Part shown: positions 46,220-64,000 of the stretch, in pieces
How positions within the stretch are numbered: position 1 is the stretch's first letter
Layout of the letters: each line of letters starts with the position of its first letter
DNA from: Ulota crispa
Lineage: Eukaryota > Streptophyta > Bryopsida > Orthotrichales > Orthotrichaceae
Assembly (NCBI GenBank): GCA_963920765.1
Contig: OY987245.1
Location: forward strand, 24,754,727-24,818,726
Reading direction: 5' to 3'
Length of the DNA: 64,000 nt
Position numbers and translations under genes: made by a program
The notes under the pieces: generated by a model
What the model saw: only the letters and a program-made list of their open reading frames with translations
Database searches by the model: none
Told to the model about the DNA's origin: nothing

Positions 46220-49200
46220 ATGGTTATGACGGAAGTAATCGAGTTCGGCGCGAGACAGAGAAAAAGCAGCTCGTACTTTACTAATAGTAGCGAGATGGAG
46301 TGTTCTTCACCAGCTTCTACCTCGTACGGGGGTCATTCTCCATCGCAAAGGAGGAACGTTGGTTCTTCCCTACTCTCCGAACATCGAGCTGACCGAGAGG
46401 TAAATGGTTTCTTCTCGAAGATTTCCTCTTCCTACTCTCGGTTCACTTTCTCTTCTCAGTTGAGCAAATACTTCTCCAGCTTCAGTCATTTCTATTCCTC
46501 ATTTTCATTTTATATCTCCTTCAGAAAACCGCAAGGGTTCCACCGTGTTTATAAGCAGTCAGTAAGCAGGTGCATTTACCTTGCCGGTGCAGCCTTGTGA
46601 GTATATGCAGAATAACGTTTCTTGGGGAGCAGTCGGAACGCTTTACTCGTCTTGGAAATATCGTCCATCCTCTGCAATTTTTTTATTTGTAACTCTACAG
46701 AAGCCGTTATCTGTAGTGAATGAGGAAATCTTCATACGAATGCAATATATATCATGAAACACGATTCGTTTACTAACCTTCTCAGTGGAAAGACTGTTGG
46801 CCTAAGCATTTCGTTTTTGGGAAGCCCTGAGCTGCTGGTTCACTGAGAAGCATTTTTAACACTCTAAGAGTTAGGGAGTTTTCGTCACCACTTGCACCGA
46901 TGCTCAAAATAAGGGTCATAAACTTCGACGAGCGCAAAGCCTCGTATGTTGGTTTCAGCTTCTATTAGCCTTGTTACAATCCCGAGTACCGTATTACGTC
47001 CCGCTCTTGTGTGTCTGTTTCGCAAAGCCGTTTAGTTCTTCGTAAACTGTATGTTGACCGGCTTCTATCGGTTTAGATGTTATTGCATTCTGCATGTTAG
47101 TGCTCATTCGTGTCCTGACTGTCTTGACTCGAATTTTTTTGGTAATTCTAAGTGCTTGTAATGCAATTGTAATGATTCAGTTTTGGGAACCTGTACAGGT
47201 TTGGTTTTAATATTCATTGATTGCTTGCTGGCTTTACAGAAAAAATTGAAGGTGTGCAAACACGTACAATCAAGACGACGGTTGAATGGCAGCCCAGGGA
47301 GCCGGGTAAGTGTGTCAAGGTTAATCATTCGCTGATTTGCATCAATATTACTAAAGACTCTTCCTTATCTAGATCAGCGGAGATACATTTCTTGGTTGAT
47401 AGATAATTGAACAATTTCAAACTTACTTTTAGTATAGGTCAAGCAATCAAAGATTCATCGATATGATCGCACAACGTGCTTACAGTGAAGCTTGTAGGAA
47501 TTAGCAAGAGGTCAATATTTGATCCATTTTTTTTCTATCTTCACCAAGTTTACTACTGCCCGAAGTGTAGCTAAGTAGCATATGCCCAGTTGAACCGCTC
47601 TTAGAACAAAGCACTGCACACGTGTGCAGAAGACCTTCGAGAAGGCAGTGACACCGAAGACTGTGGCACCTGATTGTGGGTTGAGTTGGACTGGCAAGTT
47701 TGAAGGAAAGAGGTAGATTAATCTTTCTTTTTCAATGTCTTCTTGCTTTGAATGCGCAAGTTGAGTGCTTATTTTCATGGTCACTTGCCTTGGAATCATT
47801 TTGCACATTTTATGTTTAGCTGCAAGAAAATTCCAGTTATAGACAGGATATTCTTCCCAACTTTAATGTTTTTGATATTAAAAGTTGTCGGAGTTGTTTT
47901 GTTTTGTTTATATACGGTTCCAAAGGTGCTAAGGCCTCACATGCAATGACCTTATTATTGTTTTTTGAGTGTGACAATAAAGCTAAGTTGGTCTGAGGGA
48001 AAGCTAATTGCATCGGCTCTACTTGGATGATAGTTGGGTGAAAGTAAACTATTTTCCATAATGTTGCATAGAGGATCTAGCAACTATTCCCATAGCCAAG
48101 CAACGGTTTATAGCTCACCATAACATAACTTGCTTCCATGCAAATAGAGTTGTAACATGTAAGTCTCTCAAATGAATCACAAAGAATAAATGTTGGTGGA
48201 TATGAAAACTGACAAGTATCCTTTTGTCACGTAGCTCAAATTTGAATCCCGGCCGCAAGAAGCTGACAGGTCGGAAGTTGCTTTCATCTAAAGTTTGCCT
48301 TGCTCAACACGTGGACGCACCTGTGGAGAGTGAGGTGGGTTTCTATTATATTACCAGTCAGTCAATTGATCACTTGGGCTGTATGGATTCTTCAAATTCA
48401 TTTTGTCAATAGTTCAGTGGTTGTGTTTATGAAAGTAGAGTGTTTATGTCAGGTTTTATTGTTCTGATTATGGATATTGTAGAATAAATTGTCTTTAGGA
48501 AGGCGGTTGGCTTTTCTCGATTAAATAAGAAGTGGAATCTGGCTCAATAGGCAAATGGCGAGGAGGACCTGGAAAACTCTAAGACTTTTGAGCGTCTGGT
48601 GCAGCTGTCTGAACTCGAAGAAGAAGTGAGTTGTTTTTGCGGTTCTTTTCCTAGAAATTTTGAAAACTTTCCATTTTGCAGTGGTTTGTGATACGCTTCG
48701 GTTTCTCTAATGAGCATGGATGCTTGCAGGTCTTGCTGTTACACAAACGACTGGCGGAGGAACTTGAGTTGCGTGAAGTGTTGGAAAATGCCTTGAAACA
48801 TGCGTCAGGGTCTTTGACAAATTTTTCACGTTATCTCCCAATTTCTGTAAGCTTGTTCTTGGCAACGGAAACTCTTGATTTTGGTTCTACTTTCTGTTCA
48901 AATGTCTTCAGGGATTTAAGGTTCTTTTATCACCAAAGATTGGAAACGATTTGACAATTCTGAACACTACGTGACGCAGGCCCAAGAACTTTTGGCCAAT
49001 ATTACTCTGTTGGAGGTTGAGGTTTTGAAGTTAGAAGAAGAATCTTCGATTCTAAAGAGTGAGGTGGGACAGGCGCGCACAGAGAGGGAGATAGCTGAGC
49101 TTAAGCATTCTTCAGCAGAAAGGCCACAACTTAGGGTGGAGGGTTCTGATCTTCAATCGTTTTCTTCTCTCTCTAACGGAGATCTTAAAGACGATCACAC

Positions 49201-52200
49201 TGTCAGATTACCAGGCTCAGCACCTGACTTTGAGATCCAACATTTTACGGCAGCTACAGCTCCAACATCCATCAAGACGACTACACATGAGTCTTGTTTA
49301 TCTCTTGATATTCCTGTGCTTGGAGAAGAGTTGGATTCTCAAAATCCTCAGAAAAGTTGGGAGGTGTGTTTCGATGAGCCTTCATGCTTTGGCTGTCAGT
49401 TGTACTTGCGGAAATACGTGTCTTGTATGTAGAATTCCTATTCAGTCATCAGTTTCATGTTTAAGTGGTGTTTCTTTAGTTGTAATTGCCGTCATCATTT
49501 AAAAAAATCAAATTCCTTACCAGTTGCTTGGTGAGAATGATTATGTCAGAGTTATGTTAATATTTGATGGCGCTGGTTGTTCAGGTAACTAGTTGTCGTC
49601 TTATGTGTTGTTATTCATCTATTTGACAGGAGCAACAGGCTTTTACATTGCGTCAGGATCTTCGTTTGACGTTTCCAGAGGCCTTTGAAAACTACCATGC
49701 AAACATGACATCCTGGTGTTTAAATCATGAGTATGATCCAATAAGGGGCAGGCAGAGTCAGAGGCTGAAATCATTTTGGAAGAACAACCCTTTGGAGGAG
49801 GAAACCCATTGGGTACCTCTAAACGAGCATCATCCACAAACAATGAGTTCTGGAAACGATTACGACTCTCCTCAAGATCGAAACGGAGACCCTTATCCTC
49901 CGTTGATGGGTTGTGTTGCATACGATAAGAACGATCCATCTTGTTTCTCTCCTGCTATTATCACTAAAACTGTGCGGACACATTATCCGGATATGGCCGA
50001 TCTTGCTGAGGACGATGACAAGTCTATTCTTCCTATAGCTGAAGTTTTGTGGAAACCTTCACCGAGAAAGCCTTCGGCGTTTGAGGACTCTGGAAAAAAA
50101 AAACCAAAAATGTTATTACTGACAACCAAGCCTGAGTCGTGGAGCTTTAGGTCTGAGGATGATCATCCTCGGCCAGAGAGTGGATCCGTTTCTCATAGCA
50201 TGGTTTTCGAAGACCAGCCTTGTTCGCAAGCGAATGAATCTCTCTCTATTGATGAGGTAGAATTGGCCTTCCTCTTTGATAATGAATCGTCTTTACGTAT
50301 CTTTTCCTTGGTCTCTGGATGCCCTACTATTGCTCTATTTTGGCACATTGATGAATTGATAGTGTATCTGCGGAGCTAGCATATAACACTGGTACTGTCC
50401 GAACTTGTTTCTAAGTAGGTGTCAGCTTCTAATCTTCTAAGATACTTATTATGCAGCAAAGGACGAAATACCGGATTGGCGTTTTAAAGGTTCGTGAGCA
50501 GCGACGGCAAGGTATTCTGGAGAAGAATTTTGAAAATGTGAAGGCGTTAGACTCCCCTCAGACGCCCAGCATCTCATTGGTAGCTCGCTTCGAAACCTCG
50601 TCAGTCTCTTTTATATATATATATGTATGTAGTGGGGGAAATTTCTGATTGTACGTCTACATGGCATCTTGGAAACACGTGAAAGTTCAAGGCTATGTTA
50701 TAGTTGAAATTTAAATTCTTTTTATCACAGCAACTGCCGATTTGTGACGGTTCTGAGAAACAACTCTGGTCCGTATCCCTCTTCTGGCAGGCTAAACTTG
50801 GCGGATATCTTTCTCCATCACATCGGTTACCACTAGGCACAGGAGCACAAATTGAGAACGAGTACGGATTAGAAGAGAGTGTTGAGACAAAAAATATTTA
50901 TGATCACGCTACATCAATCAAGTCTCCTAATGAGCTTTCAGAAGAAATGGTGCAATGCATGATCTGCATATATGGCCATCTTGCTGACTCAGTCAGCACA
51001 ACAAAAGAGTCCTTGCCTTCGGAAAGTATCGGATCTCCTACTTCACCATTCACAACGATGACGAATTCACCTACCTCTTTCTTTGAATCATCTCTACTAT
51101 CAGTTGGCCGAAGTCCTCTTGTAGATCTTCGTAGTAAGGATGTGTTGGGAAATGATGCCTCTTCGGACCCCTTCAAATCAAGGGGAAAGCTTCCTTGGGC
51201 AGACATAGGCCCTTATGCCAATGTGCTGGAGGTTTCGTGGCTTTCTGTGGATAAAGATCAGCTTGAACTCGCGGCACAAGCTTTGCGGAGTTTTAAGTGA
51301 GTTACAATCAATTACACTTAATTTCTGAAAGTTTTACCTTGCTTTGTTGGTTCGACGATTGTATACTGTCTTCTTCGTTCAATTACATTCTTTACGGATT
51401 TCTATTATGCGACAAGTAATAGAAATCAATGGGATATTCATTCGTTTGAGAATAATAGAATCTGAACTTGCAGGATAATGGTGGAGCAGCTATCAAGAGT
51501 GGATCCTTCAAGTTTAAAACATGAAGAAAAGCTGGCGTTCTGGATTAACCTCTACAACGCCATTCTGATGCATGTAAGTCTGACTTTGGCACGATCAGAG
51601 ACTTTCAAAATAGCTTGCAAAAGCTAGATTAATGAAGCTGGCATTTTCCTTTTGTATGTTTGTTCGGGTGTAGTAAGTTGCCGTTGTGCACTCGCATCTT
51701 CGTTCTACTCCTAGATATGCAGTTTTTGACAGTTGATCTGAACAAAGAGTTTACCATTGCAGGCATATCTGGCATATGGCATTCCAAGGAGTGACCTTAA
51801 GTTCTTCTCCTTGCTTCAAAAGGTAAATTTAATCTGTCTTCCCTCTGTGTAATTTTCAGTAACCTGTTTAAATACTGCAAAGGATATCCTATTTGTACTT
51901 GATATATGAGGTCCTTCAAAGTCGCTGTGTCTTGATATAAGTTTAGCTGGGCTTCTTATCCCTGTGTGCAGGCCGCATATACTGTAGGAGGTTACTCGTT
52001 CAACGCTGCTACGATAGAGTTCTGTCTTCTCAGGTCGAAGTCCACGGCACATCGACCTCAACTTGTAAGCACTGCTGCATATTTCCGCTACGTATAACTC
52101 TGCTTCGGTATGTCTGATCTTAGTTTCTGGGATTTTTATTGTGAGCAATCAATTTGGGTCTTATATAACTGCAGTATGGAATACCTAACTGGAGAGAACA

Positions 52201-59740: not shown

Positions 59741-62700
59741 ATGAAGACCTCCGACGTCATGGTCAAGGCGCTCGAGAATGAGAACATCGAGTGGGTCCCT
59801 CCAATCCCCACATTCCCACTCTTCATCATTCCCCCCCGAAACCATGCCACTCGAGATTGCTTAGGAATATACCATCGTAGCTCATTTCTTCGATGATCAA
59901 GATGCCCAAGTTGTGTCTCATGTTAGGCCAATTCTAAAATTTACATTGTCCAAGTTTTTTGACTTTTTGACCACCACGTCATGTGTTTTTTGCTGATATA
60001 AGATTTGGCCAATTGTGAACAATTATAATGTTTTTACGACATGGTCAATTGAATCAATCATTTTAAGACCATGAATCCTTGTATGGTTCTGTTAGTATGG
60101 GTTCATTGAAAAACTTCGGTGTCTCGTGGTATACGCTTGTGAAGCTGACATGTTCAACAGGAGGTGTTGGTCGTATATTTTGAAATCTTACCCTTTTCAT
60201 TTGGTGCACGCAAAGTAATTTACATTCTCCCTGTCGCCCACTGTATAATAATCCGATTCTATTGAGTACGTGGGAGTCGAGTTCTTGGTTCCTTTGGAGG
60301 AGCAAAACCCCGGTTCGCCTCCTTTGAAGTTTACCCTAATTACAGTCCTCAGAATGCCTTACTCATATGTTCTCGAAACTGTATTAGCATCATGAACCAA
60401 AGCCTCAATGTGATGGTAAAAGAACTCGTTGTAATGTGTAGGTATATATTTGGAATACCAGGAGAAGAGAATCTGGATTTTCTGGATTCCTTGCGAAGCT
60501 CCAAAATAAAACTGGTGGTGACACGGCATGAGCAAGCTGCTGGGTTTATGGCCGCCACAGTGGGTCGCCTTACTGGCAAGGCTGGCTGTTGCTTGTCTAC
60601 CTTGGGACCAGGGGCCACGAACTTCGCCACAGCGGCTGCATATGCTCAGCTGGCTGGGTTCCCAATGGTGATTACCACAAAATCTTGTCAGAGAAAGAAC
60701 CCTAAATTTCTGTTGAAAGCTTGTGAGCTAGAACTGAACTGATTTTTGTTGTTTTTTTTTTGTGACTTGGGCTTGGAACAGGTAATGATCACAGGGCAGA
60801 AGCCAATTCGGAAGAGTAAGCAAGGGTCCTTTCAAATCGTGGACATTGTGGAGTACATGCGACCCATGACGAAGGTATGTTCAAAAACCTGTAATACCTT
60901 GAACCTTTCGCTTTAAGGTTTTGATACAGATTCTGTAAAAAGAAGGAGGAATTCTAAAATCTGGTGACCGTGCCGTTTGCTACAGTTCACTAAGCAAATT
61001 GTTGATGGAGATTTGGTGCCGTCGTTAGTGAGAGAGGCAGTCCGTGTTGCCGAAGAAGAGCGACCTGGTGCTGTGCATTTAGAGTTGCCGGAAGACATCG
61101 CCGGAACATCCACGGAATCACATCCCTTCCCAGTCTACCCAGTCAGACGACCCATTGCTGAAGCCAAAGCCATTGACAAAGCCGTGGAGATGATCCACAG
61201 TGCTACCCATCCTCTTCTCTTGATCGGAGCTGGTGCTAACCGCAAACTGACGCAGAAAATGTGAGTAACACCAAAACATACCAGAAATCTAGTCTTACAG
61301 AAGATTTCACAATTTCCAAACCTTGTCAAACCTATGTTTTTGAAATTTTACTTGGCTACTGCAGGCTGAGGGAGTTCGTCGACCAGGTGCATATTCCCTT
61401 TGTAACAACTCAAATGGGCAAAGGAGTCGTGACTGGTAAATCTTCAACCAATCTTGACCTTTTGCTTAGAACTCGAAGCATCAGTTTTCTCCTTTTTATT
61501 GCTTTGCTTTTCAGTTTTCTGCGTTCTCATTGTGGATGGAAGTGGAAGACTACTCATTAACCATTCGACTTGAATTTTGGAGGTGTGTGTATTCTGCAGA
61601 GGAGCACCCCTTGTATTTAGGGTGCTGCGCATTATCAGCCAAGGATTATGTACACGTGTGTATCGAGAAGGCTGACTTGATCATCAATGTTGGGCATGAT
61701 GTGGTGGAGAAGCCTCCATTCATGATGAAGTGAGCACTCTCTCTCCCCCATCTTTTAATTTTATTTGAATTGTTTTTCTGATTCTTAACCAAATGCGTTT
61801 TTCCTGAAAAATTAATGAGTTTTCTTTCAGTCTTCCATTAGTTCCAGATTCTGAAGTATCTGAGAGAAATGCCGGGTGTTTTTGACTTGTAGACATAATG
61901 CGCCTCCTCTTGTTATCCACATCAATTTTTACACTGCGAAGGTGGATGAGGTTTATTTCCCACAGGTTAGAGAACTAGGCTCTCTCTCTTTTTCTCTTCA
62001 GGGGTGCTTGCCTCCTCCCTTCTGTGTGTATGCATATTATTGTGCTTTTTCAATGTGCAGTGTTGTTTGAATGTAACGCCCTTGTGATATTGTGCTTCTG
62101 CAGTTGGAAGTTGTGGGTGACATAGCCAATACGATTTGGCAACTGAAGGAACGTCTGAAAAATCAACCTTCGTGGGACACTTCTTTCGTGATGGCGGTAA
62201 GTAGTTCTTTTCTTAACTCTGTTTTTTTAATTCTCGGACTGCAAAAGTTTTTTCATGGAAATGTTTGTGGAAATTGTTCAACAAGTACAAGCATTCGCCG
62301 TTGTGCCAAAACCAGCTGATGGCTGGAATCGTGGGGAACTGCACAGGTGAAGAAAGATCTGGATGCACACTTACTGAAGGGTTTTGACGATCCTAGCTTC
62401 CCTCTTGTACCACAACGAATAATTGCAGATTTGCGGTAAGCTTTTGCGAGATGTCTGCTCTTGTTACACCTGTTCTTGAGTAACTCATCATGTGTTTATT
62501 TCAGAAGTAAGCATCAGAATGAGTTATTTACAAATCTTTGATTGGCTGAGAATAAGATGAACATCTCATCAGAAATCTGACGGTATCTTCGTTTTGCAGG
62601 AAACAAGTGCCTAATGATGGCATTGTGTGCTTGGACAATGGTAGGTGAAAGGAATCGAGGCTGTCAAAATTTCTAAGTCTTCTAAACAAGGGTTGTTGCC

Positions 62701-64000
62701 ATTGTAACATATTTCAAGCTTGTTGTTTACAATACTTTTAGAGTATTATTAATAATCCCAATTTTTAAACTTTCGACAGGTATGTACAAGATTTGGTTTG
62801 CAAGGTGTTACAAGGTAGTGATTTCACAATTCTTTTTGGTTTTAGTAACTTTTTTGATTTAGGCTGACTATGATGCTTGTTGGTGATTGTTGTGTTCGTT
62901 TTTTTTATGATGATGTCGAAATTGTGTGGCACATTGATGAAGCATATTTTGTTTCATTTGTTTGAAAACAAGGATAGTTAAAGCTTTCTTTTGTATTGAC
63001 GAGCATTGAAGTATATATGAAAGATAGTGATTGAAGTGCATTGTTTAAGTGTAGGCTTATGAGCCAAACACGTTGCTGCTAGACAACGCGCTAGCAACCA
63101 TGGGTGCAGGACTACCATCAGCAATTGCAGTAGCAATTCTTCATCCTGAGAAGAAGGTTGTTGCTGTTTGTGGAGACGGAGGCTTTCTGATGAATTCGCA
63201 AGTAAGTCTATCTCAGCAATTCCTTTTTGTTCTAATAGGCTAACCTGCAGTACGGTACTTGTCCTTTATGCTTTGGATGTTTTGATAGAGTCTTTTCAAG
63301 AATGTTGCTAAATATTTTTTGTTGTTTTTCCTGTACTCGTGCAACTTAATGATTAGTTAAGTTTTCTCTTCTTTTTTCCTCTGTCGATCCCCTGACATTA
63401 GCGTGTGTCTTCTTCAGGAGCTAGAAACGGCTGTACGGTTGAAACTGAATTTGACAATCTTGGTCCTTAATGACAATGCATTTGGCATGATCAAATGGAA
63501 ACAAAGCCTCGGCGGCTTTGAAAAGTAAGCAAAACATTCAATTTCGTTATAAATAAATTATTTATTTTCTTCATCTCCTGGTTTATGTGAAGTTAGTTTT
63601 TATATTTCTTGTGCTCATCACAAATATTGCGGCATTAAAAAGCTACAGTGATTAGAGTTCTGAATTTGCTGGAGGTTGAAAACTCGGTAGTTGTGCTCAC
63701 TCTTAGTATTGTGCAGGTTTGGCTTGAATGTAGGAAATCCAAACTTCGTTGCATATGCATGCAGGTGAGTGTTTCGTTGCTGCGTTTTGATAAATGGAGT
63801 CGAACACCGTCAATCTCATGCTTATTTTTAATAACCTTTCTCAAGCAAAATTCTGTTAAAAAGAAGACAGACTTTTTTATAGAGAATTATTTGTCGCTAT
63901 GGTTTGAGTATTTTGCATTTGAAATAGCCGTTTATGCAGGAGATGAGTAACATTAACCTCTGTTTTGCTGTGGCAGCTACGGAGTCAATGGGTATCAAGT
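59741..64000 (+). CDS. Acetolactate synthase, bacterial type, 3' end beyond the window
   Basis: Thiamine-diphosphate enzyme that joins two pyruvates to acetolactate. Exons: 59741-59790, 60442-60667, 60782-60874, 60986-61260, 61365-61435, 61600-61729, 61893-61965, 62104-62196, 62347-62435, 62600-62640, 62780-62814, 63055-63201, 63418-63524, 63717-63764 and 63977-64000 onwards; all GT-AG and in phase, ~500 codons. Start MKTSDVMVKALENENIE, then YIFGIPGEENLDFLD, catalytic Glu47 in TRHEQ, LGPGATNFATAAAYAQL, MITGQKPIRKSKQG, INVGHDVVEKPP, DNALATMGAGLPSA and the ThDP motif GDGGFLMN at ~432-439 with LNDN ~25 residues later. These phrases match bacterial large-subunit/AlsS-like enzymes, not the plastid AHAS of plants (which has VPGGASMEIHQ at this point). 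No transit peptide precedes the start; a stop lies in frame at 59717. It is probably an old acquisition from bacteria, since introns are numerous and codon use is plant-like. Confidence 0.93.

Follow-up and report, generated by a model that had tools for sequence, protein, structure and literature searches.

An intron-rich gene of bacterial type in the moss Ulota crispa and its possible role as a 2-oxoglutarate decarboxylase beside ALDH21

The gene and its second copy

The window analysed here is a stretch of 64,000 nucleotides from the moss Ulota crispa (contig OY987245.1, positions 24,754,727 to 24,818,726 of the forward strand). It lies on a contig of 25.7 Mb, here called C4, and the genome that was searched comprises 274.8 Mb in 157 contigs. 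At its end the window holds a gene with many introns for an enzyme that uses thiamine diphosphate (ThDP), and the protein belongs to a bacterial family that carries the name acetolactate synthase. An ancient bacterial acquisition in the moss is the best explanation of its sequence, and the enzyme is a candidate 2-oxoglutarate decarboxylase.

The gene model has 17 exons with GT-AG borders at all 16 introns, consistent phases and 577 codons plus a stop, and no internal stop codon was found in the frame of 577 amino acids. The exon borders were read by eye from genomic sequence, picked to satisfy frame and GT-AG, and checked by script. Exons 1 to 14 lie whole within 59741-63764, exon 15 begins at 63977 and crosses the end of the window, and the gene ends at a position equivalent to 64726, which is 726 bp further along C4 (Table 1). 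The first donor lies at 59790 (GA/GTGGGT, with the slash at the border), so that the phrase in the protein reads NENIEYIFGIPGEENLDFLD. The ATG, which aligns with the starts of bacterial relatives, is preceded by an in-frame stop 8 codons upstream; no transit peptide is therefore expected. An additional spliced exon may lie upstream.

A search of the moss genome together with a spliced-alignment script revealed an intact second copy at C1:39121089-39131311 on the reverse strand. This copy also has 17 exons, with the same phases as the C4 copy and a frame that is open to a TGA stop. The two proteins are identical at 492 of 572 aligned residues (86%). Synonymous divergence (dS) is 1.16 and nonsynonymous divergence (dN) 0.091, giving a dN/dS of 0.078 (Nei-Gojobori, 572 codons), and both copies are therefore old and retained by selection. 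Because the exon structure is common to both, the introns predate the duplication.

Table 1. Exons of the C4 gene, numbered from the first letter of the window
Feature	Position	Strand	Basis
Exon 1, ATG start, MKTSDVMVKALENENI..	59741..59790	+	donor GTGGGT; upstream in-frame stop
Exon 2, FGIPGEENLDFLD, catalytic Glu47 in RHEQ	60442..60667	+	exon model, residue alignment
Exon 3, GQKPIRKSKQG	60782..60874	+	exon model
Exon 4	60986..61260	+	exon model
Exon 5	61365..61435	+	exon model
Exon 6, NVGHDVVEKPP at the place of AHAS RFDDR	61600..61729	+	exon model, motif check
Exon 7	61893..61965	+	exon model
Exon 8	62104..62196	+	exon model
Exon 9	62347..62435	+	exon model
Exon 10	62600..62640	+	exon model
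Exon 11, NGMYK, Lys384 = MaKGD Lys386	62780..62814	+	exon model, residue alignment
Exon 12, ThDP motif GDGGF, Asp433	63055..63201	+	exon model, residue alignment
Exon 13, NDNAFGMIKWKQ, Asp460, Lys469 = MaKGD Lys471	63418..63524	+	exon model, residue alignment
Exon 14	63717..63764	+	exon model
Exon 15, truncated at 64000, full end 64076	63977..64000	+	exon model, locus L010
Exons 16 and 17	beyond the window, to 64726	+	exon model, locus L010

A Pfam search over eight open reading frames of the window gave no match above cut-off. The frame at 48920-49429 has a weak match to the leucine-zipper family PF14389 (20.8 bits, cut-off 32.2).

Bacterial ancestry of the enzyme

The C4 protein contains three thiamine pyrophosphate (TPP) enzyme domains of Pfam and scores 842 bits with the NCBIfam model NF006187 (PRK08322, cut-off 509), with residues 1-542 aligned on 2-541 of 548. 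It falls below the cut-off of the AHAS large subunit (TIGR00118, 361.8 vs 538.35 bits) and below both cut-offs for AlsS (NF006378, 445.1 vs 510; TIGR02418, 402.8 vs 551.1).

The best 80 loci of at least 565 relatives among 593 stretches in a scan of GTDB have 61-67% identity by best segment, covering roughly residues 1-530 to 1-575. Among the matches listed are two metagenome-assembled genomes of Planctomycetota (67%), KSB1 (66%), and Rudaea, Burkholderia and their kin (61-65%). NF006187 was found above cut-off in 34 of 199 genomes of Planctomycetota, 41 of 120 of Pseudomonadota, 6 of 59 from the phylum of the KSB1 locus, 1 of 39 from a fourth phylum and 2 of 14 control genomes. A scan of viral contigs gave no relative beyond one at 24% identity.

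In a quick tree with 90 rows, both plant copies nest among bacterial members of the family. In a more careful tree (LG+C20), constructed from 47 rows picked by hand, they are found in a clade of 31 rows (support 97/92) and in a clade of 35 rows (100/99). Forcing them into a clade with the AHAS of the moss itself (L119, a long branch) lowers the log-likelihood by 223 units (p-AU 3.8e-05), and descent from this AHAS is thereby rejected. Forcing them together with the two Planctomycetota sequences L011 and L012 costs 4.2 units (p-AU 0.30), so that this grouping is neither supported nor rejected. Vertical inheritance, either of a diverged copy of the plastid AHAS or of an old eukaryotic TPP enzyme, might be considered because the genome contains several TPP enzymes (nine places with PF02776, four of which were examined). 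However, the C4 protein has 32% identity to the moss AHAS and up to 67% to bacteria among the matches listed, and with the AHAS grouping rejected, L119 being a long branch, this origin is highly improbable.

Contamination was rejected as a source of the gene; it is very unlikely because there are introns, a second intact copy and a contig of chromosome scale. An earlier note, made from the letters of the window, had placed a bacterial-type acetolactate synthase here with at least 15 exons, distinct from plastid AHAS and not a contaminant, and had suggested a horizontal transfer old enough for introns to have been gained. The gene, with its noted phrases, is where the note put it, the family model and the tree agree on its bacterial type, and a clade with the moss AHAS, an outcome that the note had named as refuting transfer, is rejected. 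Transfer from bacteria is thus well supported by the sequences, as the note had supposed.

Active site, bacterial neighbours and proposed function

At two marks of AHAS, the motif RFDDR and the specificity Trp, the C4 protein is different: RFDDR is absent and Lys stands in the Trp column. The protein has been compared with MaKGD, the alpha-ketoglutarate decarboxylase (KGD) of Microcystis. PMC10418658 reports that alpha-ketoglutarate was decarboxylated by MaKGD, whereas five other 2-oxoacids were not. Six contacts of alpha-ketoglutarate are named in the docking model (V382, A408, L467, Q254, K386 and K471), and in the pathway the partner of cyanobacterial KGD is a succinic-semialdehyde dehydrogenase. 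According to PMC4224347, the Synechococcus KGD gene is annotated as acetolactate synthase. Both plant copies retain the two contacting lysines, as K384 (K386 in MaKGD) and K469 (K471). The residues E50, D435, D462 and M410 of MaKGD, which have ThDP-related or catalytic roles, are also present in the plant protein.

The two lysines characterise the family. Among 138 rows above 400 bits, Lys is found at the first position in 136 and at the second in 137; five rows of 300-400 bits stand apart from this count (L133, L145, L148, L149 and L150) and all have both. When these are added and the rows are clustered at 90% identity, the numbers are 70 and 71 of 72 clusters. In the outgroup, 22 rows with two duplicates and hence 20 distinct ones, neither lysine occurs (0/20); Gln is found at the first position in 17 and Trp at the second in 16, with the moss AHAS among these. 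The AlsS chain 4rji has Ala and Gln, and the AlsS-like chain 9zgl has Tyr and Gln.

Six bacterial rows (L192, L133 and L197-L200) have the MaKGD residue in each of the 14 columns compared, and the 14-residue string of the C4 copy is common to 68 rows; the C1 copy differs from it at a single column (F vs Y). The column patterns therefore divide the family into two branches, one MaKGD-like (V-A-H-K) and one that holds the plant copies (N-M/I/V-Y-K), and nearly every row of either branch keeps both lysines. The two rows of the MaKGD-like branch that were scored with NCBIfam models pass the NF006187 cut-off, L192 (14/14) with 820 bits and L131 (13/14) with 774 bits. A plasmid search with L192 gave no cyanobacterial record among 40 of 1698 matches listed. 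It is possible, judging from these patterns, that proteins of NF006187 are systematically misnamed as acetolactate synthase large subunit.

In 76 of the 80 best bacterial loci, the gene is followed on its own strand, at most 3 kb downstream, by one for an aldehyde dehydrogenase (ALDH), and three of the four loci without one (L022, L054 and L087) stop early on their contigs. The 80 loci are mostly from Burkholderia and Paraburkholderia, so the 76 are not independent cases. Three of five plasmid regions also have an ALDH, upstream in the haloarchaeal and Leisingera regions and downstream in Aurantiacibacter. For the ALDHs that adjoin the nearest relatives (P0001 and P0003), the first three solved structures are aldehyde dehydrogenases with generic names (738-777 bits). 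The two score 555 and 574 bits, respectively, with the ALDH21 structure 5mz5, and the next different kind for P0001 has 294 bits. We take 5mz5 to be the ALDH21 of Physcomitrella, which fits the review PMC7823795.

A tree with 37 of 98 bacterial ALDHs groups ALDH21 with the 21 of its type, with support of 97/99 when the long branch L133 is included and 81/97 in a repeat run without it. ALDH21 lies beside these 21 sequences, not clearly inside them, and has 52-57% identity to them. ALDHs of this type adjoin rows of the MaKGD-like branch too (L131, L142 and L144).

Among the matches listed, a near full-length ALDH21 match of at least 50% identity was found in 27 of 319 genomes (120 Pseudomonadota and 199 Planctomycetota). 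In 13 of the 27 it lies on the same strand as an NF006187 match, 28-123 bp away (Pseudomonadota 4/4, Planctomycetota 9/23). The linkage tables hold the first 30 match rows for Planctomycetota and the first 33 for Pseudomonadota, and the common handles indicate that both searches covered the same genomes. With the partial matches of at least 50% in G170, G026 and G290 added to the 27 genomes for Fisher tests, NF006187 occurs in 5 of 5 Pseudomonadota with an ALDH21 match vs 41 of 120 overall (p 0.004) and in 12 of 25 Planctomycetota vs 34 of 199 (p 1e-4), both values being uncorrected for kinship. Five further Pseudomonadota (G309, G369, G313, G341 and G345) have an ALDH21 relative of 45-47% identity that is encoded on the strand opposite to the NF006187 gene and 3-5.7 kb away from it. 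This linkage is looser than the operon arrangement.

The moss genome has one ALDH21 locus, C10:1360833-1363392. It gave seven exon matches to ALDH21 with identities of 67, 71, 79, 83, 90, 91 and 96%, covering residues 26-471 of 471, and is taken as the ALDH21 gene from these matches. With a bacterial ALDH as query, C10:1360830-1363144 stands out at 47-65% by exon match, and the remaining genome matches longer than 120 residues have 28-35%. The review PMC7823795 describes ALDH21 as a cytosolic, stress-induced, NADP+-dependent succinic-semialdehyde dehydrogenase of mosses, so far ascribed to the gamma-aminobutyric acid (GABA) shunt.

On balance, the gene probably encodes a ThDP-dependent 2-oxoacid decarboxylase of the KGD kind, misnamed acetolactate synthase, which would work together with ALDH21. 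The decarboxylase would convert 2-oxoglutarate to succinic semialdehyde and CO2, and ALDH21 would then oxidise the semialdehyde to succinate with NADP+. The moss would thus hold both halves of the bacterial bypass from 2-oxoglutarate to succinate, with the decarboxylase probably located in the cytosol. A 2-oxoglutarate decarboxylase feeding ALDH21 is the simplest account because it joins the ancestry, gene structure, residues and bacterial neighbours. That an operon with a KGD-like gene and an ALDH21-type gene was transferred in one event, and that mosses still run the bypass in the cytosol with a yield of NADPH, is a more doubtful suggestion.

Several observations weigh against a decarboxylase acting with ALDH21. 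At 6 of the 14 columns the residue of the C4 copy is not that of MaKGD (Q254S, V382N, A384M, H385Y, Y465F and L467M, numbered as in MaKGD), so the full residue set is matched at 8 columns in C4 and 9 in C1. Three of the changed columns (Q254, V382 and L467) are docking contacts, of which A408 is kept along with the two lysines. MaKGD was compared through printed residue numbers, and motifs, instead of the plain offset, determined the columns for Q254 and Y531. The contacts themselves come from docking, and neither lysine is among the MaKGD variants described in the text available from PMC10418658. The plant-holding branch shares most of the C4 changes, and a known substrate was found for none of its members. 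The best solved relative, 13bb_A (495 bits), is named acetolactate synthase and has Met at the first lysine column and Lys at the second. As for the partner, the C10 gene is linked to neither the C4 nor the C1 copy. An ALDH of any type was found in 22 of 63 more widely sampled loci, where the flanks were 1.5 kb only, and no ALDH occurs up to 4 kb away in two of the five plasmid regions. Of the 25 genomes of Planctomycetota in which ALDH21 has a match of 50% identity or more, 13 have no NF006187 match above cut-off. The frame upstream of the C1 start is open for 47 codons with the nearest in-frame stop 48 codons away, and the C1 copy may have an N-terminal extension; the cytosolic location is for this reason something we infer.

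An enzyme of the same family and of bacterial origin, acting on another 2-oxoacid whose aldehyde product is oxidised by ALDH21 or by another ALDH, could account for the differing active-site positions. Nearly all rows of the plant branch depart from MaKGD at one small set of positions, three of which are docking contacts of alpha-ketoglutarate, and some relatives adjoin other types of ALDH or none. However, both lysines that contact alpha-ketoglutarate are retained, and the linked type of ALDH is ALDH21, which PMC7823795 describes as oxidising succinic semialdehyde and which is linked to both branches of the family. Another 2-oxoacid is accordingly rather unlikely as the substrate.

The NCBIfam name of NF006187 and the name of 13bb would imply an acetolactate synthase of the catabolic type, through which the plant could form acetolactate or acetoin by a second route. 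AlsS models are the next best for the C4 protein (445 and 403 bits), and the protein lacks RFDDR, as AlsS presumably does. These points are opposed by the scores, all under the AlsS and AHAS cut-offs (445/510, 403/551 and 362/538), by Lys at position 469 in place of the Trp of AHAS and the Gln of AlsS, and by Lys at position 384 in place of the Gln of AHAS and the Ala or Tyr of the two AlsS structures. ALDHs often adjoin the bacterial relatives. A six-frame search, which could miss a gene split by introns, found no acetolactate decarboxylase (PF03306) in the moss genome and was positive in 3 of 14 control genomes. A synthase is therefore quite unlikely, and the second route to acetolactate that the earlier note proposed is not supported: the active-site residues, the ALDH neighbours and the lack of a detected acetolactate decarboxylase favour a 2-oxoacid decarboxylase that feeds succinic semialdehyde to ALDH21.

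Comparison with known systems

A literature search gave no report that connects this enzyme with mosses or with ALDH21 in the text available, and the gene may be included in published lists of transfers. Such lists contain 273 candidates in P. patens (PMC11228847) and two other thiamine pyrophosphate proteins, in Volvox and Arabidopsis (PMC9667741). The enzyme is not described in a moss in the accessible portions of PMC9667741, PMC11228847, PMC7823795, PMC4224347, PMC7403612 and PMC9405923. A bypass of the tricarboxylic acid (TCA) cycle is described in cyanobacteria, some other bacteria and Euglena (PMC4224347, PMC10418658, PMC7403612), the Euglena enzyme being phylogenetically distinct (PMC4224347). 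A putative OGDC of cyanobacterial origin in land-plant chloroplasts, annotated as acetolactate synthase (PMC4224347), is taken to be plastid AHAS. What would be new is thus the function and the pairing with ALDH21, not the transfer as such. If the proposal is true, early-diverging plants have a TCA bypass and the drought-linked ALDH21 gains a dedicated source of substrate. The results also suggest that decarboxylases are present in a large bacterial family that bears the name acetolactate synthase in NCBIfam.

The cyanobacterial KGDs (MaKGD, MAE_06010; SynPCC7002_A2770; sll1981) have E50, A408, M410, D435, D462, Y531, K386 and K471 in common with the plant protein. Unlike them, the plant gene is eukaryotic with 17 exons and duplicated, and it differs from MaKGD at 6 (C4) or 5 (C1) of the 14 columns, compared by residue number. 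The NF006187/PRK08322 proteins of Planctomycetota, KSB1, Burkholderia and Xanthomonadales relatives are closer, with 61-67% identity to the plant protein. Each of the bacterial genes is one uninterrupted reading frame, often next to an ALDH gene, whereas the plant genes show neither feature. The AHAS of the moss (on contig C5, taken as the plastid enzyme) has the three TPP domains, the catalytic Glu and the GDG motif in common with the gene but differs in having RFDDR and the specificity Trp, in passing TIGR00118 with 677 bits and in its identity of 32%. A further TPP enzyme of the moss, with an open frame of 533 amino acids at C1:22103212-22104585 on the reverse strand, is 30% identical to the gene and, by eye, presumably resembles 2-hydroxyacyl-CoA lyase. 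ALDH21 (5mz5) is the proposed partner of the decarboxylase and not the same enzyme.

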